Assembly: GCA_000697055.1 (NCBI GenBank)
Contig: JNDT01002246.1
Coordinates: 1-64,000, forward strand
Source of the DNA: Saksenaea vasiformis B4078
Lineage: Eukaryota > Mucoromycota > Mucoromycetes > Mucorales > Saksenaeaceae
Direction of reading: 5' to 3'
DNA length: 64,000 nucleotides
In this document: positions 24,231 to 64,000 of the stretch, in pieces
Layout: each line of letters starts with the position of its first letter
Numbering within the stretch: the first letter of the stretch is position 1
Made by a program: the position numbers and the translations under genes
The notes under the pieces: model-generated
The model's input: the letters and a program-made list of their open reading frames with translations, nothing else
Databases searched by the model: none
Told to the model about the DNA's origin: nothing

Positions 24231-27200
24231 TTAGTAACATTGGTATAACATCCGAGGATATTTATACTTACAACTGTAAGGCAAGAGATATGAACTACCT
24301 CCAGAAGGTGTAAAAATGCTTGAACGGTGGCCATGGTATATCATATTATAACAGATACCGTGAATGTTTCGAGATGCGTTTATGTCACGTTGCCATACCG
24401 TGCCACAACTGGTGCAAGTTAACGCAGTATAAAAACTGAGACTCGCAGCGCGAGTTTGTTCCACTGACTTTTCACCACATCGCGAACACACTTGAGAAGT
24501 GTTATATTCGTTTATATCGAAGACGATAAGCCTTCCTTCTCGCTTTGCCTTCTTGAGTAGCTTTCGACAGTTTCCGCCAATCCAACTGGTTTTCCGCCGT
24601 ATTTCCCTCTATCAAAACGACCAGAGCCGAAACCGATGACAGGAACTTTCGATAAATCATTGCTTGTGGACGCCTTTTTCCATTTACTATCATTGACATT
24701 TATAAGAAAAATTAGTTCTCCACTATAATGACATCTTTGATAATTACAAAGTCTTCTCTCTAGTCGGCTCACGTTGATCTAGAGCAGGAGCTTCATGGGT
24801 CGGAATGAGTGGACCAGTTCCAGCAAATTGACGTCGTATGCTATCTCTTCTTCTTCATCTTGGCCGAGGAACGCCATACCATTCACCAAAATCACCATAT
24901 TTTTTGCCGCCGCTTATACACATTAACGAGCTCAGCGTCCATCCGCTGCCTGCCTCTGAAGTTCCTAAAGTTTAAACCTCAATGAAACTGGCGTCTGTAA
25001 AATTCAGTCAATCCATTGAACGCGTCCAAGCTCGACCGCATGTAAGCGCTGGTGCGATCGAAGTCGGCTGTTCTGCTGGTTACGATCGTTCTTTCAATTT
25101 CACCTATGTTCGCTTGATTCTAGGCATTCTGAACTACTCCCACCGTGCGTCTGAAGCCTGCCTTTGTATAGTATTCTGCCGAAGATAGCGAGTGGGTTCA
25201 TGAGGTGCCTGATTTTGTCGTTGTTGATATCGCAGTCGGAGATCGTAACCATGCGCCTGCTCCTCTTCTTGATCTTGCTCTGGTGCCTCCTCGTCACCTT
25301 CGTCTATATATACAATACAAACCAGTTCAGTCATCCATTCCATTCTTTGTACTGCATTAGACCATATTACCGTTAGTGGTTTCCATCACATCAACGTTAT
25401 AAATATCATCGCCCCCACTGCTTGCGACAAATATGCCGGACACACAAGGATCCGCACCCCACATCTTCACATATTGCATCTTCCACTCTTCAAAGTCTGC
25501 AGACGTTAAACCAGGAAGTGCTTCTTCGACATGGACTTGTTTGCGAAAGAGAACCGAGGTGGCATAACCATCTTTAGCAATATGGCCGGAAAAGAAAGAT
25601 GATCTTCTACCATGATCACTATGGTAGAATAGAACTATTGGTTTCGTACCATTCGTAGCATAAACGAAAAGCCAGCGACTTACGTCTCATAGCACCGCAC
25701 CTTGCGTAAATCTAATATGTGACGAATTGTGTTTAATTCTGCAGTACGTGGTTGTATAAGATGGCGCAATCCAGCATGTCGAAGTAACGTCTCACAGGTC
25801 TGATTATCAATGGTAGCATGCTTTTTCGTAAAGCCACGCTTAGGCACTACATTAAATAACCGTTGTTGATTTGCTACCGTAAACAAGTCCGGGCGGAAGC
25901 ACTGATCAAAGAGATGTTGATTGGTCTCAGGATCTTGTAGAAATCTTACTTGAAGTTTGTATCTGCTCCTGTGTCGTAGTAACTAGTTCCTGTAATGGGT
26001 AAATGAGGCATCACCAATGAAATTCATGCGAGCACAATCGAAAGGCTGGCCATTGTTGATTGCAGCAAGCAATCGTCGTGCCAGTCCGTTCCTGTGTCAT
26101 CTCCCGAGTCTTGAATTTTCTTCAAGCTCCCGTATTTGCTGCCTTATCCACCTTATAGAAGCTTCCACGTGGGCATCGCTGGCAATTTTTATTTCTTCAT
26201 TATTGTAGCGTTCAATGTACGTTGCAATAAGATAAGACATCCTTGTGAACAAGCTGACATGTCTTGTTATAAAAGAGGTATCCAAGGTCTTGGTTATTTC
26301 CTCTCCTTCGCCATATCCAAGAATGTCCAGTGGGGTTACGTAGTCAACCAATCTTTGCAGGAGTTCTTGGTTATCGAACGTCTCATTAGCATGGAACCTT
26401 GTAAGGGCATTTTGATAATTCTTTTGACGTTGCTCGTAACTTTCTTGCATAGTAGCAAATGTATCTGTTAATATCGGCGATCTACTAAGTTGAAACGGTG
26501 AAGTTCGTGAGACTCGGTGTACTGTTTTATTCTTGTGAAAAAGAACGAGAAACTATTTTACTAAAAATCCCTCTAGATAACCGAATTCAGCGGAGTGATG
26601 TGTGGTACACTTATGAGGAACTTTGTGTAACATTGAGTTGTTTGGACACAACAGTATCAATAATGGCATTCAGTTGAACGATTTGGTGGTTCATCATTTC
26701 CGTCAACTGGGCTACTTCGTGAGAAACCTCTTGCGACTGGTTGAATTGAGGCTCCCATTGAGCAATTGCATTTTCAGTAGTAACCATTTCATCCCATGTT
26801 GTAAGTTCAATCCAGTGTGCGTTTGTAAGATCGACTTGACTATCAAACTGACGAACAATATCTTGGTCAATATTGCCAATACGCGTGCAGATACGTTCAA
26901 TCTCAATGAGACCGGCCTGCAACTGAGGAAGGTGTTCATGGCCGGTGCGACGTCGATTGATTAAGTCATGAGCCAGAGCGCAAGCTTCATTGAAAGTGTT
27001 ATGCAATCCGAGTTGGCCTTCATGATCGCGTGGAAGTGACCCGACGTATTCGGTCAAGTCTCCCAAAGTAAATAGAGTCTTGAGATCCACTTCTACTTCA
27101 TCCATCACTTCTACTACGGCGCTGTTAACATCTCCGCTGAGTTCAGCGGTGAAAGACAATCTCGCCGGAAATACGGGAGAGAACGATTCGTTGCTTGCCA

Positions 27201-28287
27201 ACACTTCAAAAACATACAGGACCAACTTATCCGCATCAGGTTTTTGTAATTCCTACAGAAATGAATAGACCATTATCAGTAAACTGAAAAACAAGAGTGA
27301 ACATTTCATTCACGTTGGCAATGGCTCGGAGACGGAGAGATATATAATTTGTTAGCCATTGAGTGTAGTCTTGCACGGTTCGATTGATAAATTTTGTGCA
27401 ACATTCAAACGTAGACGAAGAGATTACTTTTCCGTGTGAAAGATCGCCATGGATAAGACGCATCAGACCATCTGGATAACGACTTCTGTAATCGTTGAAG
27501 GAGCGCATGACATCAGTAAGTAATTCACCATGGAATACAGCGTTGTTGGTTGGTTGTTGTTGGCCATTAATCAATTGGAATATTCCGTAAAAGAAATCAT
27601 GCGTATATATTGATGGATGCAATATGTGATTGTCGTGCAATTGATCATACATAGAGTATGTAATGAATAGATGACTCTTGAGGATCACGTCACGCTGGTA
27701 AGCTACCAACTCGTCGACAACATTGACAAACTGCACTTTTTCTTCGTCCCGCATGTTGAATAGTTGAACTAGACCAATCTTTCGGGTGGTTTCTTTTAAC
27801 TTCCCATGTAGTTGACGTTGCAGTACACTGGAGCGCGGAAGGTAATCGGGACAAAGCTTGTTTGATCTTCGGCTATGTTTCCAAGATTCTTCCAATCGGC
27901 CGATTTGCAGACATGTTGGGCATCTTTTAGTGGACGTCTTCCTTGTTGCTTCTTGTCGTGCTTTTGCTGCAGTCCGTTCTCGCGATTTTTCTTGGACAGA
28001 CTGCTTTCTTTTTCTTTTTTCACCAGCAAGCTGCCTTTGAGTACGCTGCTGGGCCTGCGCACTAGACTCGGGCTGTTCACCTTCCTCAGGCTCTTGAAAA
28101 CCTTCTCGCACTATGGTTCAAAATAGAAAGTAAGGTAAAGTCATATATTACTGAGCCTTTTACTTGACATACTTTCTTGGATTTCCATCTCTCGACGTTT
28201 CTTGACCTTTTTATAGTGGATTATTTGAGCCACCGTCATACCCTCATAGTCATGTCTGTCAGGAACTGATGTAGATGGCTCTGACAT
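24231..28287 (-). pseudogene. Fanzor copy A (eukaryotic TnpB-like RNA-guided nuclease), decayed
   Basis: Minus strand. Exons 28173-28287 and 27314-28110 join cleanly and encode a charged N-terminus, a zinc-knuckle-like CPTC..(16)..S.KLCP module and the Fanzor helical region. A third exon starts at 27252 and stays open to a stop at 26611. Further blocks match copies B and C in order: RHVSLFTRMSYLIATYIE (about 26200), NGLARRLLAAIN (about 26050), RLFNVVPKRGFTKKHATIDN (about 25830), DGYATSVLF, the RuvC-I region GADPC with Asp at 25450-25452, RNFRGRQRMDAELVN (about 24950), GFGSGRFDRG, then INEYNTSQVCSRCG and C..C..WQRDINASRN. The C-terminal half has several in-frame stops and frameshifts (for example before RNFRGR, after RRQK and after GGKPVG), so it is most likely dead, although introns blur the count. 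The RuvC Glu and Asp and the four-Cys ribbon remain readable. Confidence 0.85.
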
Positions 28288-29066
28288 TGCTGAAGAGACA
28301 ATATCAAAATATGAAGGTGGTATTAATGAAGCATAGAAAGACCCGTAAAAGAAGAGGACGAAGAGAAAAAAGAAAGAGAGCGCTAGATGAACTATCAGTA
28401 AAGGAGAAGAGCTTATTTATCAGAATGATTTTCATTGTTCTTTCATGCAGAATACCGTTTTCATTGTTATTGTACTGAGAACAGCGGCTTTTATCTATTC
28501 TCATCCATTGAAAGCTATTGTATTTTCTAATATATTATTGGTTTCTCTCATGATTATTGGTATCTTCCACCGCTACAGGAAGTTACCTGCAACTAGCTTG
28601 AAAAATTTTGAGAACCTGGATGCCTTGAGAAAATTTTAGCGGCCACCAAAGAATCCAAGAAGTTGATGGAGATGAGGCCGGAAATGTGGTGTAACCTGCG
28701 CATTCTTTTAGAACAAATGGCTTCTTGGATGACTAACCCACTTTCAAAAAAGACTTCTGGACGATATAGGCTTATTAAAAAAGGAACAACGAACAGAGAA
28801 TTGGTTTTTTGTTATTATGGATGGATAAAGTACCGCTCAGAACGCAATAAAGCACACGTCTAATATTCCTTCTTGGTCCGTCTGAGCTGTGTTAATCAAG
28901 ACGTCCAAATCTGGACGAAAACTCTGTCTCAATTTGAGTTTTTGTCCGTGAAAAAACTGTAATATACAAAACATTATGCTAGGTACCTTTTTCTGTTTTC
29001 CCATTTTATTTTTCTTCACAAGGTAAAGGTATAATGAAATACAATGTACCAGCCACCGCTTACTTA
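28288..29066. other. Region between Fanzor copy A and GFA1
   Basis: 780 bp, AT-rich. It should hold the left end of the Fanzor A element and the 3' flank of GFA1. Two open frames on the plus strand (28445-28639 and 28663-28863) look protein-like over short runs but have no start context, splice joins or family motifs. I do not call them genes. Confidence 0.4.
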
Positions 29067-31619
<2,553 letters not shown>

Positions 31620-35280: not shown

Positions 35281-36337
35281 TAGGATGCAGTTTGCGGCCC
35301 CTTTCCGAGAGGAGTGGGGCGAGAAAGAAGTACTTTCTTACCATAGATCTCACAAATCGTGAATTTTATAAACAAGGACAAAAATCATCTGCAGTTAAAT
35401 TGCTAGCTGTAGCATAAACGCGAAGCAACAAGGGGCCATATCACTACTTTCGCTAAGCACGTTTTAGATAGATAGCATCTGATTTTGTATCAGCAAATTT
35501 AACCACATTTGACCGGACTGAGACCCATATGAGGGTTTACAAACTACAACATTTTGACAAGTTTTCATTCCTTGACTATTTTGCTGATTTCAGTTTCGTA
35601 GATTAGAGTTTAATCTTTCCTTAGTGTAGTGCTGTGCAGAGTAACTTGGATATCCTTGTCTTAGTGCGTACGGAGGGAGATATCCGCTTCAGCTCGTTAA
35701 CTAATGCGCTTTCTCTGCATCTATTCATCATGGGTTGGTTATCTCATATACTAACCCTTTTAAAAAAAGATTTTTGAATGTCGTTCATGCATTATGTCTT
35801 GAGAACTGTACCCTTGCATAGTTTGACAGGTGACACAGTTGTAGTGTTACCAAAGTGGCAGAATCTAAACGACAGAACAGGGCGTCTCATAGAATTATCG
35901 ATAAGCTGGTTCGTCTTGTTTCACTGACACGCTACATGGTTGGTGGTTTAACTTCATATAACAAGCAATGTCTAGTATCCTGATTTTTTAAGTCAGGGGA
36001 AAAGGAAGCACATGTTGGATATTAGTTGGTCTTTTTGTACTGAGTTTTCGGACTTTTTCTTTGTCTCCCACGGTTGCCATGACATGCGTCTCAATGACGA
36101 GCATCTCTCTTTGCATGGACAGCAATGGGTGAGTTGACATGGTTTTAAATAAACACAACGCTGCATATTCGTCAGCTATCTTTTCTTTGCTACAAAATAA
36201 AAGAAGCTACTTAAAAAAGTAAAAAGAAAAAGCACGCAACAGCAAAAGGAAAGGAAAAGTGAGGGAAAATCAATTTTTCCCTGCTTTTCTTTCTATTCCG
36301 TTTTTTCATTTTTTTTTTCCCTTTGACTTTGACGACT
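35281..36337. other. Intergenic region before the BEM2-like gene
   Basis: About 1.06 kb with the 3' flank of the ABC transporter and the promoter of the large RhoGAP gene. The last 150 bases are rich in A and T runs, typical of a fungal core promoter. No gene recognised. Confidence 0.5.
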
Positions 36338-39300
36338 ATGTCGAAAAAGTCAAAGTTGCACAGTAATACTTCACGTTTGCCAGAAGAAGAGCCGCCAAAC
36401 GTCCGTGGGAATACATTTTCCTCGCTCAAAAATCGTTTATTCTCTTCTGGCAGTAACAAGACCAACGTACCATCGCAAACGGATCGTAACGATTCGTCAC
36501 GCTCCGACATTCTACGTCCATCACCTACGACTACCCGCTCGCAGTGTTTATTTCAACGATCGTCTCCCTCGATTGACATTGCTTCTTCTACCAGAAATGA
36601 CTCTGCGGATCCCTCATCTGCCTCGTTTTCGAAATCCTATGAAGATCGACATCACTCTGAACTATCGCGACCAGTAACGCCTGTTCGACCTGTTTCGGTC
36701 ATGGATTTGGAACGATACAATGCAGGTCTAGAAAATGCTATAGTTGCACGTCGACGAAACGATTCCAATGACAAAAAACGAGTTAGTTTAATTGTCATCA
36801 AAGAAGGTTACCTGTACAAAAAGACCGACTATCGAGCATTTCATATGGCATCTAGACTCGATCGAGGCTGGAAGTTATATCGCGTTGTTTTACGTGGACA
36901 TAAACTCTATCTTTACAAAGTGCCATCCGAATCACCACTTAAATCACTTTTTCCCGTACCAAAAGATCATCATCATCACCAGCAGACGCTTCAGCTATCT
37001 CTTTCAAACAGCAGTCTGAGTAGTAGCAGCATGTCGCAAATCACACCTTCGTCTACAACAGGAGGACTGGCAATAACGTCAGGAGGATTGCTGATGATGA
37101 CCGTGGCCGGTACTGTCTTGTTGGAGTCCACTGAATTTGACAACGAAGCACGGACTGTCTTATTCGGGCCAATGCAAAAGTCTTACGTTTATGGTGCAAC
37201 GTTGACTGAGCTTGACAGGCAATCAATGCATGCCAAACATCCAGTCTGTCTTTTGATTTTTGCAAAAGAAGTGTTTATTTGCAAACGAACAAACAATCAA
37301 TGGAAGATCGACTTTCGCTTATTGTTACACCATCTGAGAGTAGATGCATTGCCAAGCGATTTAACCGACAGCACGGATTCCGCACCTACCACACCGCGAT
37401 CGCTCACAGACAGCGGATCTGTGCTGTCTTTTGAGTCCGACTCACGTTCCACAGATCACTGCACGTTCGGGTTCTCTCTTTCCATCATCAATCAACCCTC
37501 CGTTCGCTTCCTCTTTAGTTCTTCCTCTCGGGAAATCTCTATGGCGTGGACTGCAGCGTTTCGAAAGACACAACGACTTCTTGCAGAAGAAATGGAAAAT
37601 GACAGCAACAAGGAAAAAGAAGAGGATAATGAGGATGTGAAAGCCAGCGGGCCTGGCCAAGAGCATCTTAACGGCGGAATCGATGTATCGTTGGACGGCG
37701 TACAGCATCATCTACAATTGGTAGTAGACCCGTCGCGACCAGGGCGCTCCATTCAAGGCGGCCCTGTCGAGGCTTTGGTTCATGAATTACTGCTTCAAAC
37801 TCAGACTGACGCCAGCGTGGCTGATGACTTTTCTGAAGCGTTTTTGCTCACTTACCCCATGTTCACCACATCGAGTCGAGTGTTTGAGGAATTGAGGAAT
37901 TATCTTACGTGTGCACAAGAGGAGTTGGATGGCGAGCAACAAGAAAAATTACTGATACGTGCTCTGACGATTTTCAGTCTATGTTGTCTACAGTACCCGC
38001 AAGATGTGGTGGGTGATGTCGCTTCGGGTATGATAGAAATTCTGGAAAGCGACCTTTACCAAGAAAAAGCCTCAGAAGCCGTGCAGCAGAAAGGATTAGA
38101 GGTGAAGGAGCTGGTTCTCGAGACAGTGACGGAAAATGGCAAGGTATGCGAGCAGCCGAAAACCGCAGTGGATGCATGGGAAGGCCGTGTCATTGAGAAC
38201 ATTCGTGCAAGTGATAATGAAGACAAATGGATCAACCTTTCCAATATTTTCATTCGAGGGCTTACGCCGACGCTTTTCCTCAGCATCCATCCTGATCGAT
38301 TTGCAGAGCAAATTTATCTCTTCCATCTATGGTTACACAAACAACATCAACAACAATTGAAAAGTCCATCATCGTACCTACCAAGACCACAAATCTCTGC
38401 ACAGATGCTCAATTCGCTTCTTTTCACAACCACGACGCCTCATTTCCTTACAAAACTTATTCGCAACCATATTTTGGTCGATTCGCAACAGAGAACGCCA
38501 GAGATCGAGAGTGGTACATTGCGGCGATCACGGCTGATAGAGCACTGGATCCGTGTGGGTATACATCTGCTGCGTTTGGGAGACATGACAGGATGGTGTG
38601 CCGTCGCCATGGGGATATGTTCTGTTGGTGTTGTTCGATTGAAGGAGTCGTGGAAATCCGTGGAACGTGGCTTGGTCGTCGTTGTGATGCAAGAATGGGT
38701 ACATATGTTAGCGGATCATGGTCTGTTTATGCAAGAAGTGTGGGTTGAAGGATGGGAGCTCGATGTGATCAAGCAGTACGCGGAAGTTCTGAAGCCGCGC
38801 ACAGAAGGACTTTCCTTCTTCGGCACAACGAAACAAGCCGTTGATCGGCTTCGGCGGCACGTTGCCATTCAGTTGGGTCCGACCACTGTCAATTTTGGGG
38901 CATTCTGGCAGATCTTTGATACAGTACGTCATGGCTTGGCGAGCTGGACGACAGAAATAGCACCTGCAGGAGACAAAATGGAAGCGCCGTTTGACGTTGT
39001 GGGACCTCTGCAAGCCTATTTTGAGCATTCGGTGACAGAATTAGCATCGGTCCCTTATGATTACAAGTGCCTGCAGGAATGTTCTTTAGCTTGTGAACCA
39101 CGTATCTTTGGGCAACGCTTTGGCGGGTATCACAAGTTAAATTCACTGCATGGCAGCGATGTTGCACCACCGTCGTCTTCCCCTCTGACGTTTCCCGACG
39201 TTATCGATGACTGCCGCCTGTTCCAGCAAACGCGGGCGCCGGAGAATACAGCGGGGTCGTCATTCAAGTCGCACACACGCAAGAAGAGTTCGAACCAAAG

Positions 39301-42300
39301 TATATGTTCTCTTGTGAATGAAGAGGTCGTCACCAGTTCTAGTGGAATTGCTTCGACGAAGCCTTCTGAGCAACCACGATCACCTAGAGCTACCAATCGC
39401 AAATTCTTTCGAAAACGCACCTATAGTTTTCCGCCCGGGCGCTCGGCAGAGGAAAATGACGGGTCTGCTTCGTACGAAACGAACCAGGCAATGGAAGCAA
39501 TTAATAGCAAAACATGGTTGGGGTCGTTGGTTTCTCACCGTCATCGAACGGATGCTGCAAAGACATTGCTGGCGGCGGCGCATCAGAAAGGCCGACCTTA
39601 CGGTGAATACTTGCTGAATGTTCATCGGGACGAGCTTGTTTTGAAAATTGCTGGTATTGTTTCGACAGAAGACACGGCAACCATAGGAAGGAGTAACTCA
39701 AGTGGGTTTGTTGCTCTGGCGGAGAAGGGCAGTTCGGGGATTCGATCAAGGGCGGGCACAGTCAGTAGTGGTACGAAAGAGGATGCGCAGAAAGTAGCTG
39801 AGGGGTCTACACCAGCGACATGGCAGCAAATGGTATCAGCTACGTCCTCCTTATCTTCGATGGTATCCTCCTCGTCGTCTGCAGCTTCAACTGTCGTCGT
39901 TCATGTCAAGGCTGGTCTGCTGGAGCGTTTTGTGGATGTTCTCATCGATGGTGTGTCGGGATACAGAAATGAAGCGCGAGATCAATGGCATGTTTTGCTA
40001 AGGTCAGAGGAGGGACCATCTACAGTACAGCGGTTGGTTATGGACGAGGAAGAGTACATGAGGGTGTTCTTTGTGACGTATCGCACTTTTTGTTCTTGCG
40101 CACATCTGTTGGAGCTATTACGAGAGCGGTTTGTGAATGCCAAGGAAACTGGGCGATTGTCGAAGTTGCAGAAGATGAGCACATTGGAGTCTGTGTTTGT
40201 GCGCCAGGAAGGCGGTGAAGAAGATAAGGACGCGATTGATCAATGCGATTGGAAATTGGTGTCTACGATTCAGCTTCGGATCTTGTGCGTTATGTTGTAC
40301 TGGGTGGAGGAGCACTTTTACGATTTCGTCGATGAAATTGAGATCCATCGGCATGTGGGGCGGTTCATAAAGAGTGCACAGGAGGCATTGGATGCATGGC
40401 GTGCTCCGCTTCAAGCAAGAGAGGGAGGAGGAGCGTATGAAGAAGTTCTGAAGAGCGGGCAGTTGATTGAGCAACAGATGTTGGCTTTGCGATCTCAGTT
40501 TATCCGCAAATCCTTGTCTCCTTGCTACGATCTCAAAGCGATTGAGTACGACGCTGTGGGCACGCGTGGTGTGGACGAATTGTATGGACACCTAACGGAT
40601 GGCACTCAGTCGTTTAGTCCGTACGTTATACAGGTGGCGAACGGGAAGGCCATCACTCTTTCGTTGGACATAGCTGCACGGGAGGAAAGCAGAAAAGTCA
40701 GTTTCGTGGACGAATGCTCTGTCATAAGGTTGCTGCAGCTGGCGGATCGGTCTGTCCGACAGCTCTTTGCATCCGTTACTTTGCAGGATTGGATTCAGAC
40801 GTTTGATATCTTCGAGGCCCAGTCAGGGGATCTCTATGCATGGCTACCGGCACGCAAGGCATCGCAAACATCGGCTATCTCTGCGGCGCTATCGCCTGTG
40901 GTGGACGCGCCATCTGCTCAGCAGACGAGATATCACATTCCGATAGATGATGTAATTGTGTCAGATATCTTTACGGCTATCGAGGGCGCTCGTCGTTCTG
41001 TGGTTTCGCCATCGGCGTTTTCTGCTGATGATTTGTTACTAGCATTTCCTAGTTCGATTCAGTACTTGTACTGCATGCACTTTATTATTCGGAGCTGGGC
41101 AATCAATGAAATCGCGTCGCCAAGCATCGATTTCAACGCCCGCGTGCGTCGTATCGAAAAGTTTGTGCAGATGGTGGCGTCGAGCAAAAGGTCAGCTGAG
41201 CACATGACCCTGTTTCCGGACTTGAAAGAAATGAACGATGGAAAGCGGGTCCCCGGATTTGTCGAATACGCCATTGCCAGCGCGCTTATCAGCCCCGAGG
41301 TGCGATTGTTTCAGAAGGCTTGGCAGGAGGTGGGCAGGCGTTGCAGTCTTGGGCATTTTGACACGCTTGAAATTCTTCTTTGTCATATGCAAAAGGCAAT
41401 GCCGGAGGAAGAGACGCAGCAGTCGATGGTACTTGTACCGAGCTTGGGATGGATCTTTGAACGGATGGTGGAGCTTTGTGTGACCGTGCCAGACACACAC
41501 GGTCCTAAAACGGATATGGTGAATTTTGACAAGCGACGTTATATTTTCCATTTTCTGCAGCTTGTGATAAATGCACAGATGAATGTCGAGCAAACCAATG
41601 ACCATCAAGGTACGACTTGCCTTTCATTTGTGGTTGCACCAAACCCAGCCAAGTCGACCTGGAAAGATCTTAAAGATTTGGCAAACCGCGAAAACCGATC
41701 CAATATGATCGGGCGCAGTTCGAGCAAAGGTTACACAAGGACGGTGTTTGCCAAGCTTGTGGCGGAACAACTGGATAAACAGAAACGCGATATTAAGGAA
41801 CGCGATCGGATCGACAAAGAGTGGCGGGAATTGCAACACAAGCTCCAAAAACGACAAATGGAACAAGCCCGTTATTTGGAAAAGCAAGAACGTCGAAACC
41901 AACAGCAGCAGCTACATCAACAACAGCAGCATTATGTCCTTCCCAAGATCAATTCCTTTTTACGGGGATTGCGGTCACATGCGACGACGGACCCTCATCT
42001 GTTATCATTTATGACGACGAAAGCGTCCACGGTGATCAATCTTATTCATTCAACGACTTCTGTTGCCAGTGCATACACAAAACGTGATTTCGTGTTCCGT
42101 GTCGTTACGGAGGAGGGGGGGCAGTACCTGTTTCAGGCGACGAGTCGAGACGAGATGTGCGATTGGATGCAGCAGATCAACAATTCCGCCAGAGAGGGGG
42201 CTGTCAAACGTCAGAGTGCACTTGCATCAGAATCGTTTGATGAGCAAATTGAGGTGAATCAGACCAATCGGATGTCGAGTAATGCACGATCTTCTGTATA

Positions 42301-43024
42301 CGGTGTAGAACTGAGTGTATTGATGAGTGACGGGCGTATCCCATTGGTTGTTGAGAAATGCGTGGATGAAATTGAAAAGCGTGGGTTGGAGGAACTGGGT
42401 ATTTACCGTGTGGCGGGTACAGGATCTGTCGTGAACCAACTCAAGTCCGAATTTAACGAGAATGCAGCCAAGGTGAATTTAAGTGATCCGAATTGGGCAG
42501 ATATCAATGTGGTAGCGGATGCGCTGAAGCAATTTTTACGAGAACTTCCTGAACCCTTATTAACGTATTCATTGTATGACGAATTTATTACTGCCTCAGG
42601 TAGAACAAAGGAACATCTCGTTTTTGGTAAGCGACATTTTAACGGGCTTTTAAATCTTTAGCATCGGAGGATCATGATGAGCGGGTCTATTTGATAAAAC
42701 GAGTACTCAACAAACTTCCGAAACCGAATTATACGTTGCTAAAACGGTTGATTGAACATTTCGTGATGTAAGCCGCTTTATTTTTTTAATAGAAGGATGA
42801 AATCATTCAATTTGCGTTTTAGCGTCACGGATTTCGAAGCGACGAATCACATGTACGCCACTAATTTAGCGATTGTGTTTGGACCGACCTTACTGCAGCC
42901 TGCACCCGGTCCAGCCTCCTTTGCGACAACGATGACAAATCTAGGCCATCACCATAACATTGTCAAGTACCTTGTACTGAATTACCATTACCTATTTGAT
43001 ATTGAGGGAGAAGAAACCCAATAA
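36338..43024 (+). CDS. BEM2: Bem2-type RhoGAP with PH and RasGEF-like domains
   Basis: Three exons, 36338-42626 (a 6.3-kb exon), 42662-42767 and 42823-43024, giving 2198 residues, almost the length of yeast Bem2 (about 2170). Order: disordered Ser-rich N-terminus; PH-like domain near 150-415 (IKEGYLYKKTD); RasGEF-like module near 475-900; a Ser-rich linker; second RasGEF N-motif and catalytic-like module near 1190-1675 (EEYMRVFFVTYRTFCSC, SSIQYLYCMHFIIRSW); Gln-rich coiled coil near 1830-1865; PH end near 1905-1955; and RhoGAP near 1985-2190 with the arginine finger in GIYRVAG (about 2020), ELPEPLLTYSLY and NLAIVFGPTLLQP. The RasGEF parts look divergent and may be scaffolds, as in Bem2. Known role: GTPase-activating protein for Rho1/Cdc42 in polarity and cell-wall integrity. 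The start at 36338 is the first ATG in frame. Confidence 0.92.
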
Positions 43025-46395: not shown

Positions 46396-46406
46396 CTCAC
46401 GTGAGC
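46396..46406. promoter_or_regulatory. CACGTG (E-box) element
   Basis: TCACGTGA palindrome upstream of the small membrane-protein gene, with a second CACGTG about 55 bases further at 46451-46456. Such pairs are bound by bHLH factors (Cbf1/USF type) in fungi. Assignment to this gene is by position only. Confidence 0.4.
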
Positions 46407-49330: not shown

Positions 49331-49356
49331 ATCTAACTAGGTTAAAGAATAGTATC

Positions 49357-52300
49357 CTATAACTGAATACTGCTAGGTTTTTCTGGCCTACGGAACGCGG
49401 GAGGCCGTTGATTGCTGTTGTCTCTCATATAAAGAAACACGTGCAATATATTTGTTGCAGCCATTTTATCTCGATTCCAGAACATGGCCGTACATGATTT
49501 TTTCTGACATGTCAGCACGGCATGTATTGTCGATCCTTGATGGCCTTGCGCGTCGTTTTCTTCATTTGCTTTCTGTAAGTCTCGAGTCTCACACGCTGGA
49601 CAGACCTGGGACGTAAGATATTCGTCTATGAGGAAAACGTATGTGGGAGCCTTTCGAATTTAAGGTCAACGATAAGTTTTTGGACAACTGTAGAGCTACC
49701 TTTCGTCGCCTAGCCTGCTCTTGTAGTTCCTTAAAAATTGCCTTGGTAGGTGCAGCCTTTTTGCCTTTCATGCTACCGGAAAACCCTCCACTCCCATAAG
49801 CGACGATAATGGGCTTGTTCTTCTCCTCAGCCTGATCGTTCGGAGAAAGAGGAACCCACTTCGAATTACTCTGCTTCCGTGCTTTTTGCTTACTGGGTTG
49901 CTCGTACTTCTTGCTACCGTGGAGTAATCTCTTGGCAATCTCACTTCGACCTTTTTGTCGTCGGATATAAGTTTTGAACTTTAACTTGCTATATCTGAAA
50001 AAATATACACATGCTATGACAAAATAAGTAAAGAAAATAGCAACCAACCTTTGATCCCGGCTAAAAAATTCAGAGATACGCTCATAGTGCCGGACGCAAT
50101 ATCGGATCGCAGTAATTAATTTCTGCATGCTAGTTGTCTTCAATGATGGTATATTATTGATCAGGGTTTTCACCTCAGGCTCGCCTTTCACGTATTTTTC
50201 CCGAATCCTGGTAGCATGACTGAATCCGCATAGAGTATAATATTCTTCTGTGGTGGTTGAACGAACGCGATGCTGAGAAGTGCCTATCCCATCGGCGCTC
50301 ACAAAGGCACTTGATACCCCGGGTCAACACCCCAATAACCGCATCATTGTACTTCGCTTTCATATCAGAAGGCGTTAACGTTTTCTTGTTCGGATTGTAC
50401 AGGGCCTTGTACTTCTTAAAAAGGAACTCGACGTCGGTACCATCCGTGCGTATTTTGTCCCTGAGGCAACGCAGTGAATAACCTGAATCATACACAATGA
50501 AAATACGTACCAAAAAACACTTCTGTCAGTTTCCAGACTCTTCAAGGTATCATAGCCGATCTTGGACATATCGAACAATTGAAAATATTTTTCCCTAGCT
50601 TCCGTGGCCTTAACAGGCGATATGGAAGGATGTAGACCGGATTTACACATCAAACGGCCCAGTGCCTGATTATCCACCGTGATATGACGCATTTGCATGT
50701 TATAGATGGGCAACATTGTGAACCTTCTTGCACCCCGCGGGTCGGTGTACTTTTCCGGCTTGAATGTACCACTATCGATAGCCTCTCCGGTTTCCTTGAT
50801 GAAATCCTTCAAGTTCGAGATCACGGGACCCGGTATACGGTCGAACTTCTTCGTGAGGGACAGCTCTTCTCTTTTTCGGATAGCTATTCTGACAGCCACT
50901 TCAAGACTCTTCGTTAGACGCTTTGATAGCTTCACATCACCAAGGATCTGCAAGACGGTCAAATAACAAAAGTTTTGATGATTCCTGATTACCTTATCTA
51001 TCATCCGATGAACGTATCCTGTGGAGACGTACTTCTGGGGGGTTGCCTCTGCAATGAACACTTTTTGTTCCAATCGTGCAAGTACTTGAAAGAACCATGG
51101 GAAGAATAGATGTGGCTCTGCATTTAGCTTTTCATCACTAATAGAAGCGACCCGGATGGATTTTTTCAGATATCCTACGCAAGTGTCGACATATGAACGG
51201 TTATCTTTGTTGTCTGGAACAGTTTTGGGCCATTCTGCCTCGGCACCGCAAGCTTTCTTGTACATGAATTCTGCTAGAATCTTCCTATCTTTCACCACTC
51301 CTTTCCATCGGAAAAGCTCATCCTCTTGATCAGACATGCACATCAAGAGATACTGGATCGGTTTTCTCTCGAAATTCGCCGTCAGATAGTTCCTGATTGA
51401 TTCTTCGTATTCTTTTGCAGCGGTAGAGACTACGGTCATGTAGCCTTGTGAGCGGAACTTCTTCTCATCAAATTCAGGGACAGAGCTCTTGAAACTGTCA
51501 AATGCTTCACGGAGATTATGCTCCGCTGACGTTGCTTTCCCAGCGATCAATGAAAACAGGTTGTAACACAAGTCATGCGTGATTGGTGGAACAGGACAAC
51601 CTTCGGATAATAGGCTAACAAAAAAGAAATTGGCAAACAGCGGAGAGACAAACTCTGTGCTCTTGCATGTTTTCGCCAATGACGCTTTGATGACAGCTGT
51701 ACGCTTGAAATTCGTCGGAGGTTTCCGTTTGAAGATCCTTTCTGGGCACTTGGCATTTGTGGCTCTACGGTGGTCCGTTTAGCTGCATCGAGGGCATCGG
51801 ATGACTTGACCGGATGCGATAGCTGCCTCCTTTTTTTCTTCAAACAAAGCTTTTTTGGCTTCGGATTTGGCAATGCGCTTCTTGTGAGCTTTTTCAGCTT
51901 TAACGAATGCTTTGGATTTTTTCCTTGAAGGACCAGGTTCCGATGTCACCTCGTCTAATAAATGTTGTCAGATTATGTCAAACATAAAGAGTATCTACCT
52001 GAATATTCTTCAATATCTTCATCGTCTTCTGGTACTTCATCCTGATGATCCTGTTTGTTCACGTTCTCTGCGGCATCTTTGGTTTCATTTTTGAATTTGT
52101 GACCATGATGTCATGATGGCTTACCTCTTCTGGTTTCGATCAGTGATCGGGAACTATTATCTGAATCCGCGATCTGTCTTTCCCTTCCTTTCAAAGAACC
52201 TACATTTCCTGATTATTTTGAGTTCATATTCTCCTTCCACAATATCATTTACCAGTTGAAGGCAACGAACTCTCTGGAGCGTGGATGAGTGCATCCTCAC

Positions 52301-52439
52301 TCATACACTCCACGGGAGGAGTTGTCAATGGTTTGTGCACATCTGGTGCCTCAATTTTTTGATTGAAGAAGGATGTAATTAACGTCTGGTTTGGAGGTAG
52401 AGGTTTAGGGTTGGTTCTGCGTCTTTTACGCATGGTCAT
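49357..52439 (-). pseudogene. Fanzor copy B (TnpB-like RNA-guided nuclease), nearly intact with two lesions
   Basis: Eight exons join with exact phase except as noted: 52253-52439, 52125-52208, 51999-52076, 50993-51954, 50521-50947, 50049-50482, 49700-49994, 49357-49650. The total is about 0.88 thousand codons. The N-terminus is basic with a PCNA-box match (QTLITSFF), then an acidic stretch and a Lys-rich helix. A zinc-knuckle-like CPRC..H..A...CP is interrupted by TAA at 51779-51781. Helical Fanzor domain, RRFTMLPIYNMQMRHITVDN, FQLFDMSKIG, RTDGTDVEFLF follow. At the RuvC-I site (about 50317-50333) the frame changes: a GVDPG-like reading exists only out of frame and SAFVSADG resumes in another frame. 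After that IDEYLTSQVCPAC, a C-X4-C second pair and FWNRDKMAATN give the RuvC Glu, the zinc ribbon and the last Asp. Splice sites are good throughout, so inactivation looks recent. Sequencing error at either lesion cannot be excluded. Confidence 0.88.
52365..52388 (-). other. PIP-box (PCNA-binding) motif at the Fanzor B N-terminus
   Basis: The eight codons read QTLITSFF, a full match to the Q-x-x-[ILM]-x-x-[FY]-[FY] consensus, about 18 residues from the start and next to basic residues (RKRRR before, NQK after), as in true PCNA-interacting peptides. Function is inferred only. Confidence 0.55.
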
Positions 52440-52949
52440 AATAGAAGACAATGAAAACAGAAAAAGGAGGAAAGAAGATTGATGCGTTTCTTGTGACGTT
52501 TTAACAGACAGCTGCAAACCTTCGCTTCACTCATGTACTAATCACGTTATATTTGGTTAAAAAAAGCACCGCCTTATTCATCCAATCAGCATTGAAACTT
52601 TGAAGTCAAAGATCTTAATTATACCAGCTGTGGTGCTCGCTTCGCTTCGCAACACTGCTTTTCTATGGGAAAAAGAAATATTATTGAGAAGATTTTATGG
52701 AAGGCTGAAGATTCTGTTGGCAAGAAATAATTTGTTCAATTGCCGAAAGTTTGTTGCTGGAATATATGGATAAAAAAGAACTATATAAAAAAAAAGAGTG
52801 CATGAAGGAAGAATCTATGTAAAAGAAAAGATGATGTAAAGAAGACGCACTGTGAAGGAAGAGATGATGTGAAAGAAAAGATGGTATAAAAGAAGAAAGA
52901 TCTTTATATTTTTTGCTTGATCATACTTCTTTTTTTTGAAAGTTGCGAC

Positions 52950-53245
52950 TTTCGCTTCGCTCAATAGCAATCGTTGTATGGGAAAGAATTGGAAAGACAC
53001 AGAAGGAGATGGTGAATAATATACCTTCTAATTGATATGCTTGATCTAGTGTCTTTCGGTACCAAGGAAAGTACACTCCGAAAAGTGCTTGTGTTGCTTT
53101 CGCTTTGCTCAATGGCAATTGTTTTATGGGAAAGAATTGAAAAAGACGGAGAAGGAGATGGTGGATAATACACTTTCTAATTGATAATGCTTGGCCTAGT
53201 GTCTTTCGGTGCTGAGAGAAGTTCACTCCAAAAAGTGCTTGGACC
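52950..53245. repeat. 148-bp tandem direct repeat, two copies
   Basis: The unit starts TTTCGCTT(C/T)GCTCAAT at 52950 and again at 53098 and runs to the shared GAAAAGTGCTT-type end. The copies share long blocks such as ATGGGAAAGAATTG, AGAAGGAGATGGTG and CTAGTGTCTTTCGGT, with scattered differences, so the duplication is not very recent. Confidence 0.85.
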
Positions 53246-53283
53246 TCCACTGCGCTCTGGTAAGCACTTTTTGGAGTGAACTT
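53219..53283. repeat. Perfect 22-bp inverted repeat with 21-base loop
   Basis: The 22-mer at 53219-53240 (it begins AAGTTCACTCC and ends AAAGTGCTT) is repeated exactly as its reverse complement at 53262-53283. The arms bracket a 21-base loop. It overlaps the end of the second 148-bp unit; a diverged single arm is also present at the end of the first unit (near 53068-53090). It may be an element end or a structured RNA. Confidence 0.9.
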
Positions 53284-53539
53284 CCCGCCTGGCATAGCAA
53301 AGTTGAATAGGCATATCGTTGAATAGTTTAGGAAGGTACAAAGTTCTGCTCACTGTGTCGTGCGATATTCAGTAATACCCTTTGGGCTGCATCAAGATCC
53401 ATAGATTCATGACGCCGGTGCAATGAACAGCCATAATAAATATGGTAAGAACCACTGTAGGTATGGCAGTTTTGGCTTTAACGATATTTTTTACCTCTGA
53501 AGACACTAAAGCAATCAAAAATGGTGCCGGCTGTATTGC

Positions 53540-53899
53540 TCAAAATGGTGTGGTTGCAGGAGCAATTGTGGTGGGAGGAGGAGGATGAATGATAGGCATA
53601 GCGGCGGACGCTATTGCTGGAGTAATCACTGGCACCTGTGCTGGAGCAAGTACCGGTACCTGTGCTGGAGCGGCTGCAGGAGCAATCGCACGAAGAGTAG
53701 AACGAACAATAGGTGCAACAACAGGTGTTATTGCTGAAGAAAGTACTGGTGCAGGTGGTGCAGCAGTTGCAGGAGCGATCTTACGTGCATTGGAAGCAGC
53801 GGGCCGACATAAAGTGCTATTATGACGTGGATTCAATGGACAATTCTTGCTACTACGATGATAATGGCCATCTTGACCACAGCTGCTACAAATTGGCAT
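53540..53899 (-). CDS. Zinc-knuckle-like protein with Pro/Ala/Thr/Val-rich tail
   Basis: A 119-residue frame starting MPICSSCGQDGHYHRSSKNC followed by P-L-N-P. The pattern C-X2-C-X4-H-X6-C-P is a small zinc-binding module widely seen in proteins of mobile elements in Mucoromycota. The rest is low-complexity: repeated PAQVPV, APATA, ITPV. The same type of module opens the Fanzor A and B proteins, so this may be a detached N-terminal fragment of such an element, or the product of a related captured gene. An AG acceptor (CCATAG) lies just before the ATG, so an upstream exon is possible. No function can be assigned. Confidence 0.5.
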   Translation of the reverse strand: MPICSSCGQDGHYHRSSKNCPLNPRHNSTLCRPAASNARKIAPATAAPPAPVLSSAITPVVAPIVRSTLRAIAPAAAPAQVPVLAPAQVPVITPAIASAAMPIIHPPPPTTIAPATTPF

Positions 53900-56849
53900 G
53901 TTCTATGGGGATCAGAAAAGAGAAGAAGAAACAAAGAGAAAACTACAGAAACGATTAGAGAGTTTCCTTTTTTGCAGCAGCTACTAAACTGAAAGCGGGA
54001 TGTAAAGTTAGCAAGCCAATCAAAAATTTCGAATGAAGGTCAAATTAGCCAATCCTCTTGAGTATTTTGTCGGAGTACACTTTCAAACATTTTAATAAAG
54101 AGTAGTAAGAAGTAAGATGATGTATGATGATGATAAAGTGGGTCGAAACATGCCAAAACATTTTCAGGTGACGCGACACTCTCACAAGGAACTGCCTTTG
54201 GCACAACCTCGATAAATGAAAATACGGGATTTGGGGATGCGTATGCTTCATCTCAGTATTACTTTACGTTGGTACCATACCAACCTTGCGCTGAGGAGAA
54301 TTTAGCTTTTACCTAGAGAAGTGTATGCTTGCGCAAAGGTGTATTGCACTGGTTCATCGTAAGAGGTTACTCAATCTACCAATCGGGAAGCACAGAATAG
54401 CAGCATTGGAAAGAGACGCATGAATTCGTTCTTTTTCTCCTTCGGCTCCGTTTCGCATACAAGACGTCCCGGGTACTTACTAGGATTGATTATACACACA
54501 GGAATCCATGTGTTCTAATCTATAATTTAGACCACATGGTCGTAAAGGAAAGAAACGGATCACTCCTAGATGCCATCAAACCACGTCTTACACATTCCCA
54601 TCTTAACTGTGCGGACTGTGGTTCCCACAACTGGGTGGGATTACGCTTCCAATTTGCTGACCATGAATAATTTTGTACTACTCTACATAAACTTCCCTTC
54701 CGTCGAGGGGCCAAGTTGAAGTAAGTGATGTACAGTTTTGGTTGCAGCTGCTTCTATTTCTTTCTTCTATACAATGCTAGTGATCCTCAGCAAAGCTGGT
54801 TGGGCAAGCCACTTGCATCTGGCTTTCTGTATTTAGTACTTCTGATCGTGTTTAATCACAGCAAGCATCGGGCGAAGTAAACTTGAAACGCGGTTCTTCG
54901 ACGGGGTCTGGAACACACAACTATATTCTACCAGACCAACGGACTGCCCTGTTTTGTAGGCAATTTACGGACGGATAATTACTATCCTTAGGATGAGACA
55001 CACAGATGATAAACGTCATTTCTTAGCGTCAAGCAGAATGAGCATTAATTAAAAAATATTGCTTTCGAGCTTAACTGTATATGCACCTATCCTGGTGTTT
55101 TATGAATCTTCAGCATGCGGATTGAGGAGTTAAGCAGCATACTGCTTAAGTACGTAGTCCCTGCACTGTGTATCCCATTTCCCGGTGCAGGGAGAAATGT
55201 TTAAACAGCTATGCAGTAATTGAGTTTCCAAGGGTTAAGGAGTATTGTTGCTATTTGTCAGATCGTTTTTTAGCGGCGAACTGGCCTACATGCAACATGT
55301 AACGGTGACATCTGCGCTGACAGCTACATCATTTGTACAGGAGCATGGGATATGGCTTGGTGGACTTTACCGTCGCTCAACGACCGCCCATCCTTTTCAT
55401 GTCATTTTCGTTGGTTGTAGCGTTATCGTAGTGAGTCAAAAAGAAGAGGCCCTTTTAATTTCTTTCCACATGCAAAGACGTGTGTATCCACAGCTATCCT
55501 ATAGTCAATGGTGTCTACGAGTGCTACGATTCTATATCTTCCAACCTTCCGAACATAGTGTGTATACAATAATATAAAAATTCATTCACGGTTGGTAAAT
55601 GGAAGATCTCTTGACGTCAATTTACTTATCCCCGAAGCGCAGAGCCAACCGATGATGGTAGCCTGCCCACATCACTGAACCACCTCAATGCAAAACGTCA
55701 TAATTGTTTCAATGGGACCTTTTCCTAGCTTGACACATTTTTACTCCATCCAACAGGATGCTGAGAAACCATCATTGAAACACTGAAATGTCCGAGTTAT
55801 CCGGAGAAAAAAAAGGAGGTATAGTCATCTCCTATGGCACTGCCTTTCAAAATGAAATTTTTGACGTTGCCCATATTCTGGCGAATAAACTGGATTACTT
55901 GCAGCTATTCTCTATCAAGGCCGCAAGCGATTTTCGTGTTTTCTTGTGGCGTTTGAGTAAGTTTAACGAAAGCGAACATGATACATCCTTCGGGACTTCA
56001 AATGTCTTGTATTTATTCCTGATTTTAGCGAACATTCCTTCTCGGTGAGAAGTGTTCATGATAGTAATTACTGCGGTAGCGGTAGCATCATGTGAAGGAT
56101 CTCGATGATATCTCTATGATATTAGAGATTATGTGTAATCGGCGTCCCGATATAGAGAAGCTACTGTTAATACCAGTCTTCCTGTTATCGAACGTATTTA
56201 AATAGACAACGATCTTCAGTCATTGAGATTCTTTGCATCCGAGACGTAATCAACACGGTTCTCACTAGCTTCAACGCATCCTGCGAACCTGCGTTTGCCA
56301 AGGAAGTCAGTTGCGACTTTTGGGCGCGACGATTTGTTTTCCTCTTAAACGCAGCTCCGAGTGGTCATCTTATCGGAGAACGTACATCCACCGGCCGCCC
56401 TCGGGCACTTTATCTTCTCTGAAGTGCCATCAAGGTCTATGATCGAATTTGGATTGACGAATAAGACGATGGTTGTACCCTATTACAGAGAAGTATCTGG
56501 AAGCCATATGCGGTCGAGGTAATCACAAGCTATGAGAAATATGGCATATCTGTCACAATAAAGAGATGCAGCCGGGAAGAATCCAAAAGTACATTATGAA
56601 GGGGATGCAGAAGCAAAGCATTGCGCTACACGGAAGACATGTCGGAGCACTTTGCGAGGCAAGAACGGAAGTATACCGATTAGTGGAATGGTATAGATGA
56701 ACTCGCTAGAAAAGACTATGAAATGTTCAAGAGAATCCCCCTTATAGAAATCATAATTAATATACAAAGAGCTTTGATGAAAGTTTATCTTCCGTTGATC
56801 TAGTTTTCCTTGTATTTTTGCCGCCTTTAATCTATAAAGTTGATAAAAA
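53900..56849. other. Gene-poor stretch with coding relics
   Basis: Nearly 3 kb with no intact gene. Protein-like runs occur at about 54530-54660 (plus, with a C-A-D-C pair) and about 56240-56400 (plus, reading INTVLTSFNASCEPAF), but both break quickly. Frames at 55245-55577 and 55788-56048 have no recognised features. This looks like an area of decayed mobile DNA. Confidence 0.4.
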
Positions 56850-58707: not shown

Positions 58708-60801
<2,094 letters not shown>

Positions 60802-62179
60802 GAGAAACTAAAATAATGCGCAGAAGAGAAGAGACCAAAACTACGCACGCTATTATATAGCTTTCAATTCTCGCTAGAGGAGACACATGGGAAAGGGCTC
60901 CCTGATCACAAGGATACCCCAACGAAGCAGAACAGAGCAAACTTCAGCGTGTTATTATTGTTATTATTATTACAATGTGTTGGTTGGACATTCATCTTGT
61001 TCATTTAGCCGTGGTTATACCGGGGCTTCGATATCCTGTCCGCCCATGGTTGAAGAGCGCGTCTTCTAACCTTTCCTTTGATTATCATGCTCCTTTTTAT
61101 GTATTGTGATTATCAATGCACGTTCAACCGTGGCAAAGCCGAGGGACGAGATACTACGTAGGTATTAACTTGTTGGAGTAAATTAGTTAGCTATTCCATG
61201 CTATATATTACTTAAGTGCTTAGCAAGAAGTCGATCCTGTCTATATCGCATCAAGTTTGTCAAGAACAACTGGCTCACTGCTTCTTTACAAATTGGAAAA
61301 TCATAGGCCATTCGATGCAACCATATTGTCGCGATTTTAATACGTTGCCACACATGATATATTGCTGCATGTCAGCGCAGCGTGGAACTTTGCGCCGTGG
61401 TTGCATGCATTACTGCTTTAGATGCGTTCTCCAGGTTGCAGGTATGGCCGTGCGACGGACATAGGTAGGAAGTGAAAAATATTTTGTTCATCATAAAAAC
61501 AACGTAGATGCCTTTTATATGCGATGTTCACCACAACAATAGGTTGGGATATCGTATGTTTTCCTATCTTCCTCATTTGCTCGTATTTCGGTGGAGACGA
61601 ACATTGCTTTTGCGTACAGCTGCTGAACATTGCACCGTTATAGCAATATTATGATAGTGGTATCTTTTCATCAGACTTGCTATTGACCGAGCACGCTTAG
61701 AATCTCTAATCGCTAGACTAGCAAGTATTTACTTTCTATTCAATACTGTACTTCTGCCAGACTTGGTGATCTCGCTGTTTTCCTTTCGTTTCTTCAGAAA
61801 AGAATCGAAAAATTCAGAAAGTGCAATATGTTCTGTTCTCAGTGGAACCGAGACTTTCAAGCATTCGTTGAAAAGGGAAAGGACTACCAAAAGCATTGAT
61901 TTTTCACTGGATATGTACGGTAAGTTAGAGTGAGTGCTTTGTCCTGTAACAAGATCACCCTCCTGAATGGTAGTCGAGGTGATGAACGAGGTTGAATTTT
62001 TATTTTGTTATTAATTATTTCGCTGATACTAGCATCCCACTACCTCAACATGTACATTTGACGTTTTAAGCGTTATTACTGTTTTTCCCAAAATGAATGT
62101 TGCAAAGGAAAGAAAAAAAGATGTCGTTAGCGAACTACAAAAATGGAAATCGATGGTTTTGCGATACTTACGACATTGT
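60802..62179. other. Gene-poor stretch before Fanzor copy C
   Basis: 1.4 kb with no recognised gene. The part nearest 62180 lies just downstream of the Fanzor C stop, where the guide RNA region of an active element would be expected. A plus-strand frame at 62226-62729 mirrors the Fanzor and is not a gene. Confidence 0.45.
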
Positions 62180-64000
62180 CTAAACGTCGCGAGCTTCTGT
62201 TGCTCGGATTGGTTCGAAGTTGTGATTGAATATCGGTGGACGACTCGTTGGCTGGTGGGCACCTTCAATCGCCAGCATGGCCAACGCGTGGATATTTCTT
62301 GCAGCGTTCAAATCTCGTTGCCAAATGCGTGAGCGGCTGTTGCATACTACCACCGAATGCAAGTTCGATTCTTCTATTTGCAAGTTGTCCAACGACCTCG
62401 TTCCACAGATCCTGCAGACTTTGCTTGAATATGATTCATTTACAGACACCATGATCAAATGCCCTTCTGTCTCTGCTCGTTTCAGCAACTTCCGAAGTCT
62501 CTTTGCCAGAGCGTGGTTTCCCCCTGAATGTACGCCGATCGAACCGTCCGTCACCGACACAGACTACATTTACCACATCATCGTGGGTGCGAACGAACTC
62601 TGCCTTGCGCCATTTGTTACTAAGAGAACATGGCATGAATCAGTTTTGTCTTTCAGACTTCTATTAAAACACGCAACTTACGGTTTGGGGACGGTTTGGG
62701 CTTGGGCAACGGGTGGCGTCCGGTGCTAGTCCTTGCTGCAAGTACTTCTTGGCTCACAATGCTCGGACCTGCATTATACTTCTTGCCACCTCGGAGAAAT
62801 ATGTTCACCAGTTCGTCATCCACCTTTTGGCGCCCACGGTAGTTAAGGAAACGGAGCTTTTGGACCTCGATGCCATAGAATTGGGTTAATACAGGCAGAC
62901 GCTCCAGAAGGCCAGCAATGTATTCATCCAATCTTGCAAGATCCGTTGTTTTGGCTGTGGATATTGCGCTTTCAATACGATCAATGCCTTGTGCTTTCTT
63001 CCACCGCATGATCTTGGTGTTTGTCTTTTTGAATCCTGCCTTAACATAATACTCTGCTGCCGAAAATTTTCGCACTTGGTGTCGATGGTTGCCCACATGT
63101 TCTGGGTGGGCATAAACGTCCCTATCACTGTCATCAACGCCAACAAATACTTCATTGACTCCCGGATCCACTCCCCAGATTTTGCAGTGTTGGAGATCGT
63201 CCAAATTGATATCGTCTAATGCAAGGGATGGCAACTCGTCTTCTGGTACAGGTTTGAGAAATATAAAGGAAGTGGCATAGCCGTCCGTGAGAAAGTCATT
63301 TTGGAAGATGCCGTGTCTAAACCAAACAAATCAGCGCCTTGCGTGTTTTTTACTTCATCTTACCGCTTCATTTTGCCCATATCAAACATGTTGAAATTGG
63401 TATGTGGGCGATCGACAGGTACAGGGGTCCCAGATCTTGCAGCGTGGTGGTCAAGACCAAAGTGACGGAGGATGGTTCCCATGGTCTCATGGTCAATGCT
63501 GATATACTTTAGAGTAAGACCAGGCACAGGGGCAAGGGTGAACAACCGCGTCTGTTGTCTAGTCAGATACCCAGGCGGGGTGAATACACCATTATCTAGT
63601 TGCTGCTTAGCTTCTGCGATGAACGACTGCATCTGATCGATAGAATTTTGGCTAAAGCCGACCGGAAGACGTCCATGTTCGAAGGCACGTCGTTCATTGA
63701 TGATCTTGGTGACGGCACGCACAAGATTGGTACGGCGGCGATAGTTCAGAAATGCCCATTCAGGTAAACTTGACAATTTATGGCGCGTCCATGTGAATCC
63801 GGCCTCTGTTTGCACCGTAGCTGGGAGCTCTTCTTCCTGATCGTTCCAGAGTTCCATATAACCAAGTATTTCATACAAGATTGGCAAAAACAGATGAGGA
63901 TATCTCGTCAAAGTAGCAGTCGTAGTTGACCGGTCCAGAGCAAGCTGAGAGACACCAAAGCTACCAACAGTAGTCATACTGAGAGAAGGCGATGGAGCAT
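62180..64000 (-). pseudogene. Fanzor copy C (TnpB-like RNA-guided nuclease), decayed and cut by the window edge
   Basis: The minus-strand frame enters from beyond 64000. Exons 63364-63978 and 62682-63316 join in phase and carry TRYPHLFLPILYEILGYMEL, RLFTLAPVPGLTLKYISIDH, FNMFDMGKMKR, LTDGYATSFIFL and a perfect RuvC-I motif IWGVDPGVNEVF (Asp codon 63166-63168). They continue with NHRHQVRKFSAAEYY and FLNYRGRQKVDDELVN. The next exon starts near 62619 (KWRKAEFVRTHDDVV, CVGDGRFDRRTFRGK) but its phase is one base off the preceding donor. A frame change follows near 62520, before KRLRKLLKRAETEG. The C-terminus has VNESYSSKVCRICG, then a second zinc pair reduced to C-N-S-R (one Cys replaced by Arg), then IWQRDLNAARN. 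It is thus probably inactive. The N-terminal region lies outside the window. Confidence 0.85.

Follow-up and report, generated by a model that had tools for sequence, protein, structure and literature searches.

The DNA analysed here (hereafter the window) comprises positions 1 to 64,000 of contig JNDT01002246.1 of Saksenaea vasiformis B4078, C533 in our numbering, in an assembly of 38.7 Mb and 666 contigs. Three loci for Fanzor, which in eukaryotes is related to TnpB, the CRISPR ancestor, were found on the minus strand at the coordinates given in a preliminary description made from the letters alone: gene A at 24231..28287, gene B at 49357..52439 and gene C at 62180..64000. The blocks reported there are also present, and the extent of locus C had to be corrected, as it runs past the window to about C533:66642. 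The motifs DPG or DPC, E-x2-[TS]S and WxRD could be read directly in all three. RuvC-I appears as DPC near 25450 in A, as DPG near 50324, with frameshifts, in B, and as GVDPG within 62656-63330 in C. The zinc ribbon was located by motif reading and PF07282 at 24363-24566 in A (with E-x2-TS and WQRD) and at 62291-62497 in C (with WQRD), and in B it extends to WNRD at 49468-49611. When the profile check proposed in the preliminary description was carried out, all three zinc-ribbon exons exceeded the PF07282 cut-off of 26.3 bits: A (24234-24608) scored 57.4 bits, B (49363-49659) 27.5 bits and C (62183-62563) 40.5 bits. The C-terminal pattern used to recognize Fanzor1, D...[TS][TS]xxC4...RD with a PF07282 ribbon, is present, its D-to-S spacing having been checked only on the relative P0001 (D518 to S718, 200 residues).

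A homologue search with a joined Fanzor from contig C5 (L025) yielded five proteins, P0001-P0005. P0001 is a metagenomic protein of 796 residues, open throughout and 36% identical to the L025 join, P0002 comes from Apophysomyces ossiformis and is labelled as a TNB domain, and P0003-P0005 are more distant. A profile built from P0001, P0003-P0005 and the L025 join matched SpuFz1 of Spizellomyces (8GKH) in the PDB with an E value of 1.9e-18, and in this profile of relatives the acids of GvDPG (D), dEfrtS (E) and WnRD (D) were aligned with SpuFz1 D383, E541 and D606 (numbering from passages of PMC10432273, with the offset of the fusion tag counted by hand). Because of the SpuFz1 match and the aligned D-E-D triad, the three window loci are assigned by sequence comparison to Fanzor1, and the family proposed for them in the preliminary description holds. 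Searches of the PDB with single pieces gave TnpB-type matches for one zinc ribbon and chance matches only for the RuvC pieces.

By the same kind of comparison, A, B and C are three subfamilies of Fanzor1. The C zinc ribbon is 37-39% identical to those of four A-family members and 26% identical to that of one B-family member. In a zinc-ribbon tree (about 100 residues and thus of low resolution), C, the A family and the L020 group form one cluster, and L025/P0001 and B fall outside it; C was the only window copy to fit the extraction pattern, and A and B were represented by their relatives L003, L024, L030, L031 and L048. These identities (26-39%), together with ends of A and C that are unlike those of B, agree with the earlier opinion that the copies differ too much for a recent tandem duplication. 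The family is also numerous in this genome. At least 137 PF07282 matches were found (150 of 388 candidates scored), along with at least 155 matches to the RuvC exon of C (150 of 268 candidates scored) and at least 99 segments matching the exon of B (91 of 160 candidates scored). With 137 copies in 38.7 Mb, the expected number of non-overlapping 40-kb windows holding at least three is about 0.41, so three Fanzors within 40 kb are close to chance and do not form a special cluster. A fourth copy lies on the same contig (C533:79837-80049, where L014 holds RuvC and ribbon open reading frames (ORFs)). The window loci are not isolated relics, since close relatives exist for C (94% identity over 4.5 kb) and for B (97% over 4 kb). 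Further Fanzor-type loci include L027 (C531) and L029 (C599). The N-terminal stretch of L027 (LRIYPNEKQ...YN) resembles bacterial TnpB and differs from those of A, B and C, and L027 matched nothing in the PDB by sequence. L020-L023 (on C29, C33, C74 and C428) are four copies of a larger Fanzor-bearing repeat with 97.5-99.99% identity over more than 6 kb, reflecting either recent duplication or assembly redundancy.

Judged against their relatives, all three window copies are broken. Gene A contains a 188-nucleotide insertion (26466..26653) that is not in L030 or L031, gene B has an in-frame stop in its N-terminal motif and two 1-nucleotide deletions at the DPG block, and gene C has a 2-nucleotide deletion upstream of the zinc ribbon. 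On the minus strand of gene A, an acidic insert of some tens of residues follows RuvC-I (25137-25385), perhaps at the place of the FRI domain of PpFz1. The N-terminal motif is common to A (CPTC...HSRRSN..CP, 27848-27922), B (CPRC..DHRRATN..CP, 51743-51796, with the in-frame TAA), C as seen in L013 (CPTC...HSRASN..CP) and P0001 (CPTC...HSRSSS..CP), and from its letters we call it zinc-knuckle-like. It sets the copies apart from SpuFz1; passages from Fanzor papers treat a C-terminal finger and a presumed N-terminal helix-turn-helix. A pattern scan of the window and loci L013-L058, several of which stop short of the N-terminus, gave 13 rows with the motif, two of them duplicates (L033 of the window and L034 of L035). 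The scan did not find it in the C-family loci L016-L018, nor in L020-L022, though these are near-identical to the motif-bearing L023, and by eye it was not seen in P0003-P0005. A Pfam scan of the gene A exon with the motif matched no zinc family. Beside the 5' break of locus B, a small ORF on the minus strand (53543-53902; start MPICSSCGQDGHYHRSSKNCPLNP, Ala/Pro-rich tail) encodes a knuckle that resembles this motif and weakly matches zf-CCHC_6 (16.2 bits; cut-off 22).

The genes lie within elements whose ends could be recognized. Element A (24099..28961, minus strand) has the right (3') tip TACAGTTTTTCCC from 24099 and the left (5') tip TACAGTTTTTTC to 28961. The window part of element C (62077..64000, minus strand, continuing to about C533:66642) has the right tip TACTGTTTTTCCC from 62077, and the element is inserted at the 3' end of the second of two tandem aldehyde dehydrogenase (ALDH) genes; these genes, named by eye, lie at 58741-60829 of the window and at 6669-8769 of L013, with 69% identity. 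Terminal inverted repeats (TIRs) are present in both elements, and tips of the TAC[AT]GT-TTTCC type occur on copies of C (L015-L019) and A (L030, L031 and L024). In the A family, four aligned right ends have a common tip and then diverge; one left end is known, with TAT before its TA, and a left-end pattern scan found the window copy only, the reversed control also giving one match. Right flanks differ in all aligned copies, five of five for C and four of four for A (excluding the right end of L017). A genome scan with the C-type tip pattern found 45 tips against none for the reversed pattern, and gene orientation assigned 8 of them to the left, 11 to the right and left 26 unassigned. TA was present at 18 of the 19 assigned tips (the left tip on C27 has TC), partly by construction, as the scan pattern held TAC. 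With CAGT or CTGT tips and TA at both ends, A and C look like TIR/TA elements of the Tc1/mariner kind. Ten pairs of C-type tips were found, seven spanning 0.2-1.7 kb and three 4.2-4.8 kb, and four of the seven short pairs (C27, C447, C565 and C626:172071) contain a ribbon match; two inverted tips on C265, 8.7 kb apart and both left-looking, were not counted as a pair. The short derivatives resemble the 'ghost' loci described in passages of the SpuFz1 paper (PMC10432273).

The C-type tips are asymmetric in the bases preceding TA. AAT was present at six of eight left tips (all but C447 and C27) and at none of the 11 right tips (Fisher 0.001). By hand count, it also preceded 12 of the 15 unassigned tips with left-type CAG or TAG letters, compared with 1 of the 11 others. 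For SpuFz1 elements, passages of PMC10432273 report a conserved CA before the left repeat only and a measured motif of CATA. Given the left-tip asymmetry and the parallel to this layout, AATTA is predicted as the target motif of the C family.

Element B (49334..53340, minus strand) is organized differently. Its right (3') end, ...TTAACCTAGTTA, lies at 49334, and it matches its relatives only to 53340, with L035, L050 and L053 sharing about 0.3 kb more. Over 22 bases, the right end was found at 12 places (8 exact, 3 with one mismatch and C66 with three), all with differing DNA beyond, while the last 157 nucleotides matched at 15 places, four of them at 71-89%. The retained lengths vary: C165 has only 152 nucleotides of the right end beside unrelated sequence, C66 about 400 nucleotides, and C235 matches B only to 52842. 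From these alignments, the right end of B is fixed and its reach on the 5' side varies. The letters of TTAACCTAGTTA, with the stop codon inside them, also form the end of the distant relatives L055 and L056. A subterminal hairpin with a 7-bp stem (49351..49371, minus strand) lies 17 nucleotides before the right end and overlaps the end of the ORF. Three lineages (B, L055/L056 and L057/L058) have a hairpin 17-18 nucleotides from the end, with stems that differ in their letters, and L049 (C66) has no hairpin and CTAA instead of CTAG. All three lineages had the hairpin at once in 0.025% of shuffles (P 0.00025), a coincidence tested after it had been seen and on three end-anchored sequences; the end of L057 is uncertain and not proven, because its sole relative has the same flank. 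At Helitron ends, the hairpin is spaced about 10 nucleotides from CTRR, and a T follows. All 12 B right ends have a T directly after CTAG or CTAA, and in 11 of them CTAG is followed by TTA, C66 having CTAA and then TTA. A 3' hairpin followed by CTRR, the Helitron pattern according to passages of PMC3627910, was found with CTAG in the B, L055 and L057 lineages. The left-end pattern of B gave 24 matches at up to three mismatches and 10 at up to two, and only these 10 were used, as the reversed control gave 18. On its sequence, B is best compared with Helitrons, but it is not filed as one because its left end is not resolved.

The right ends are also where guide RNAs would be expected. By analogy with SpuFz1 (passages of PMC10432273), the minus-strand regions from stop codon to tip, 24099..24233 in A and 62077..62182 in C, are predicted omega-RNA scaffolds, and the flanks below 24099 and 62077 would be the guides. 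Gene B runs to within 23 nucleotides of the element end, so its right-end RNA would overlap the gene. In bacterial TnpB, the right-end RNA does overlap the gene. Folding of B compared with shuffles gave z values of -2.1 for the last 160 nucleotides and 0.2 for the last 100, and over the last 300 nucleotides variability among B and 10 other copies was only mildly lower. Observed homology, ends, flank asymmetry and broken frames led us to infer that the window holds decayed copies of three Fanzor1 subfamilies carried as transposon cargo, whose intact copies would be RNA-guided and favour copying back of the element; we give this a probability of about 0.85. An intact Fanzor would bind the predicted RNA made from the right end of its element, and the 3' tail of this RNA, read from flanking DNA, would guide cutting of an empty site beside the motif (AATTA for the C family). 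Repair of the cut site would then copy the element back, and the occupied site would be spared, as the letters before its guide-matching right junction are CAGTA rather than AATTA.

Several results weigh against this interpretation. PpFz1 and GtFz1 were absent from the matches of the PDB profile search at E up to 1, and a structure model of P0001, made with three distant rows, had a mean predicted local distance difference test score of 37, too low to place the triad. No Rfam family reached its gathering score in the window, and the right-end folds of A and C were no better than those of mononucleotide shuffles. Single hairpins were better than shuffles in L057/L058 only, and not in the window copy of B or in L055. 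The genome does hold 157 DDE_3 transposase matches, which speak for the cargo interpretation, but none was tied to the ends of A or C (TACWGTTTTTCCC), nor was a transposase found among the exons scanned (for C, those inside the window), and on the latter ground A and C probably moved in trans. The AAT letters could, moreover, belong to the left end of the element itself. An entirely different origin, with the loci as domesticated genes of the host instead of cargo, would account for the long retained blocks, but all three copies are broken and the family is multi-copy with mobile-looking ends, which makes it highly improbable.

The motif and the class of element B each have a competing explanation as well. 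If AAT were a constant part of the C-type left end and insertion needed TA alone, left junctions would look identical, and when the window C site is collapsed with one TA, the ALDH frame ends soon after. The other collapse, made by hand only, also runs straight into a stop, and the site thus favours neither reading; a search with joined flanks for an empty C site matched only the two flanks. Against a constant end stand the two left tips without AAT and the equal layout of SpuFz1, which has CA before its left repeat and a motif determined in cutting experiments (passages of PMC10432273). We therefore keep AATTA as the prediction and regard the constant-end explanation as having a lesser, though real, chance. 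For B, the TTA after CTAG or CTAA at right ends and a left-end block containing ATTAC (10 places, up to two mismatches) may point to a Crypton-, Harbinger- or IS605-like element, in which the hairpin would be part of the guide RNA and not a transposition end; the Mucor families MCi-2 and MCi-5, which have Crypton or Harbinger parts, are assigned to no class in PMC3627910. This is quite conceivable, at a little under even odds, but the Helitron comparison fits better with the hairpin about 10 nucleotides before CTAG, the T that follows, and one fixed end with variable other extents, and one-ended Helitron Fanzors are described from Chlamydomonas (passages of PMC3627910).

A more far-reaching and rather doubtful extension of the cargo interpretation is that parallel RNA-guided systems operate in one fungus. 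The C family would read AATTA, whereas the guide RNA of B would overlap the last codons at a hairpin-bearing, Helitron-like end in a TnpB-like manner. Short derivatives would be guide-only elements served in trans, and the N-terminal zinc knuckle would tether the protein to RNA or DNA.

Some observations concern the surroundings of these elements. Among the DDE_3 matches, there are six inverted pairs whose members score the same or almost the same and lie 1-4.3 kb apart (C24:5185+/9500-, C662:91313+/92873-, C599:35141+/38034-, C53:47474+/48531-, C445:80129+/81384- and C440:80+/1973-), the pattern that long inverted repeats with a transposase gene in each arm would give. The window further contains an open frame of 2132 codons (36263-42661, plus strand), which we take by eye to be a RasGEF/RhoGAP-type signalling protein, and a 391-residue piece of an MFS/UNC93-type transporter whose best match is in A. 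ossiformis (73% identity); its ten best listed matches all come from mucoralean genera, which marks the host as a mucoralean fungus and probably not one of the sequenced Apophysomyces.

Knowledge of Fanzor1 in Mucorales dates from 2013, when Bao and Jurka described 10 families from Mucor and also reported it from Rhizopus and Phycomyces, and it occurs in Mariner, Helitron, MuDR and other elements (passages of PMC3627910). What is new here are the predictions of ends, motif and guides for this host; in the open-licence literature, we found no paper joining Fanzor with Apophysomyces or Saksenaea. The MCi, ROr and PBl families of Mucor, Rhizopus and Phycomyces belong to the same protein group, compared here by description only. 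As in B, MCi-2 copies have differing 5' regions and a common 3' region, whereas the reported target-site duplications are 9 bp (MuDR type) or 11-12 bp (MCi-2) and none was found for B (passages of PMC3627910). CRe-1, 2 and 3 of Chlamydomonas, Fanzor1 Helitrons in the same passages, also keep the 3' end and have many 5'-truncated copies, but B differs from them in target context, and no Helitron protein was tied to it. SpuFz1, carried by SPu-1 of Spizellomyces punctatus, shares with the present copies the profile match, the aligned triad, TIRs with TA, bases that are conserved only ahead of the left end, and derivatives without most of the gene (passages of PMC3627910 and PMC10432273). It differs in the zinc ribbon (17% identity to C), in frames that here are split as by introns, in size (SPu-1 is about 2.1 kb, compared with 4.6-4.9 kb here) and in motif (CATA versus the predicted AATTA). 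PpFz1 of Parasitella parasitica is a mucoralean Fanzor1 with the reported motif ATN (passages of PMC11423790).

Active Fanzors are wanted as genome editors, and the benefit of a Fanzor to its eukaryotic transposon is still an open question. The earlier suggestion that active relatives and guide RNAs are worth seeking in this host stands for the near relatives and for the shared right ends with copy-specific flanks, though not for the window copies, which are dead. The host offers several subfamilies with shared right ends, and hence predicted guides, together with a statistically supported motif prediction; therefore, the copy-back idea would be testable here without guessing either the RNA or the motif.

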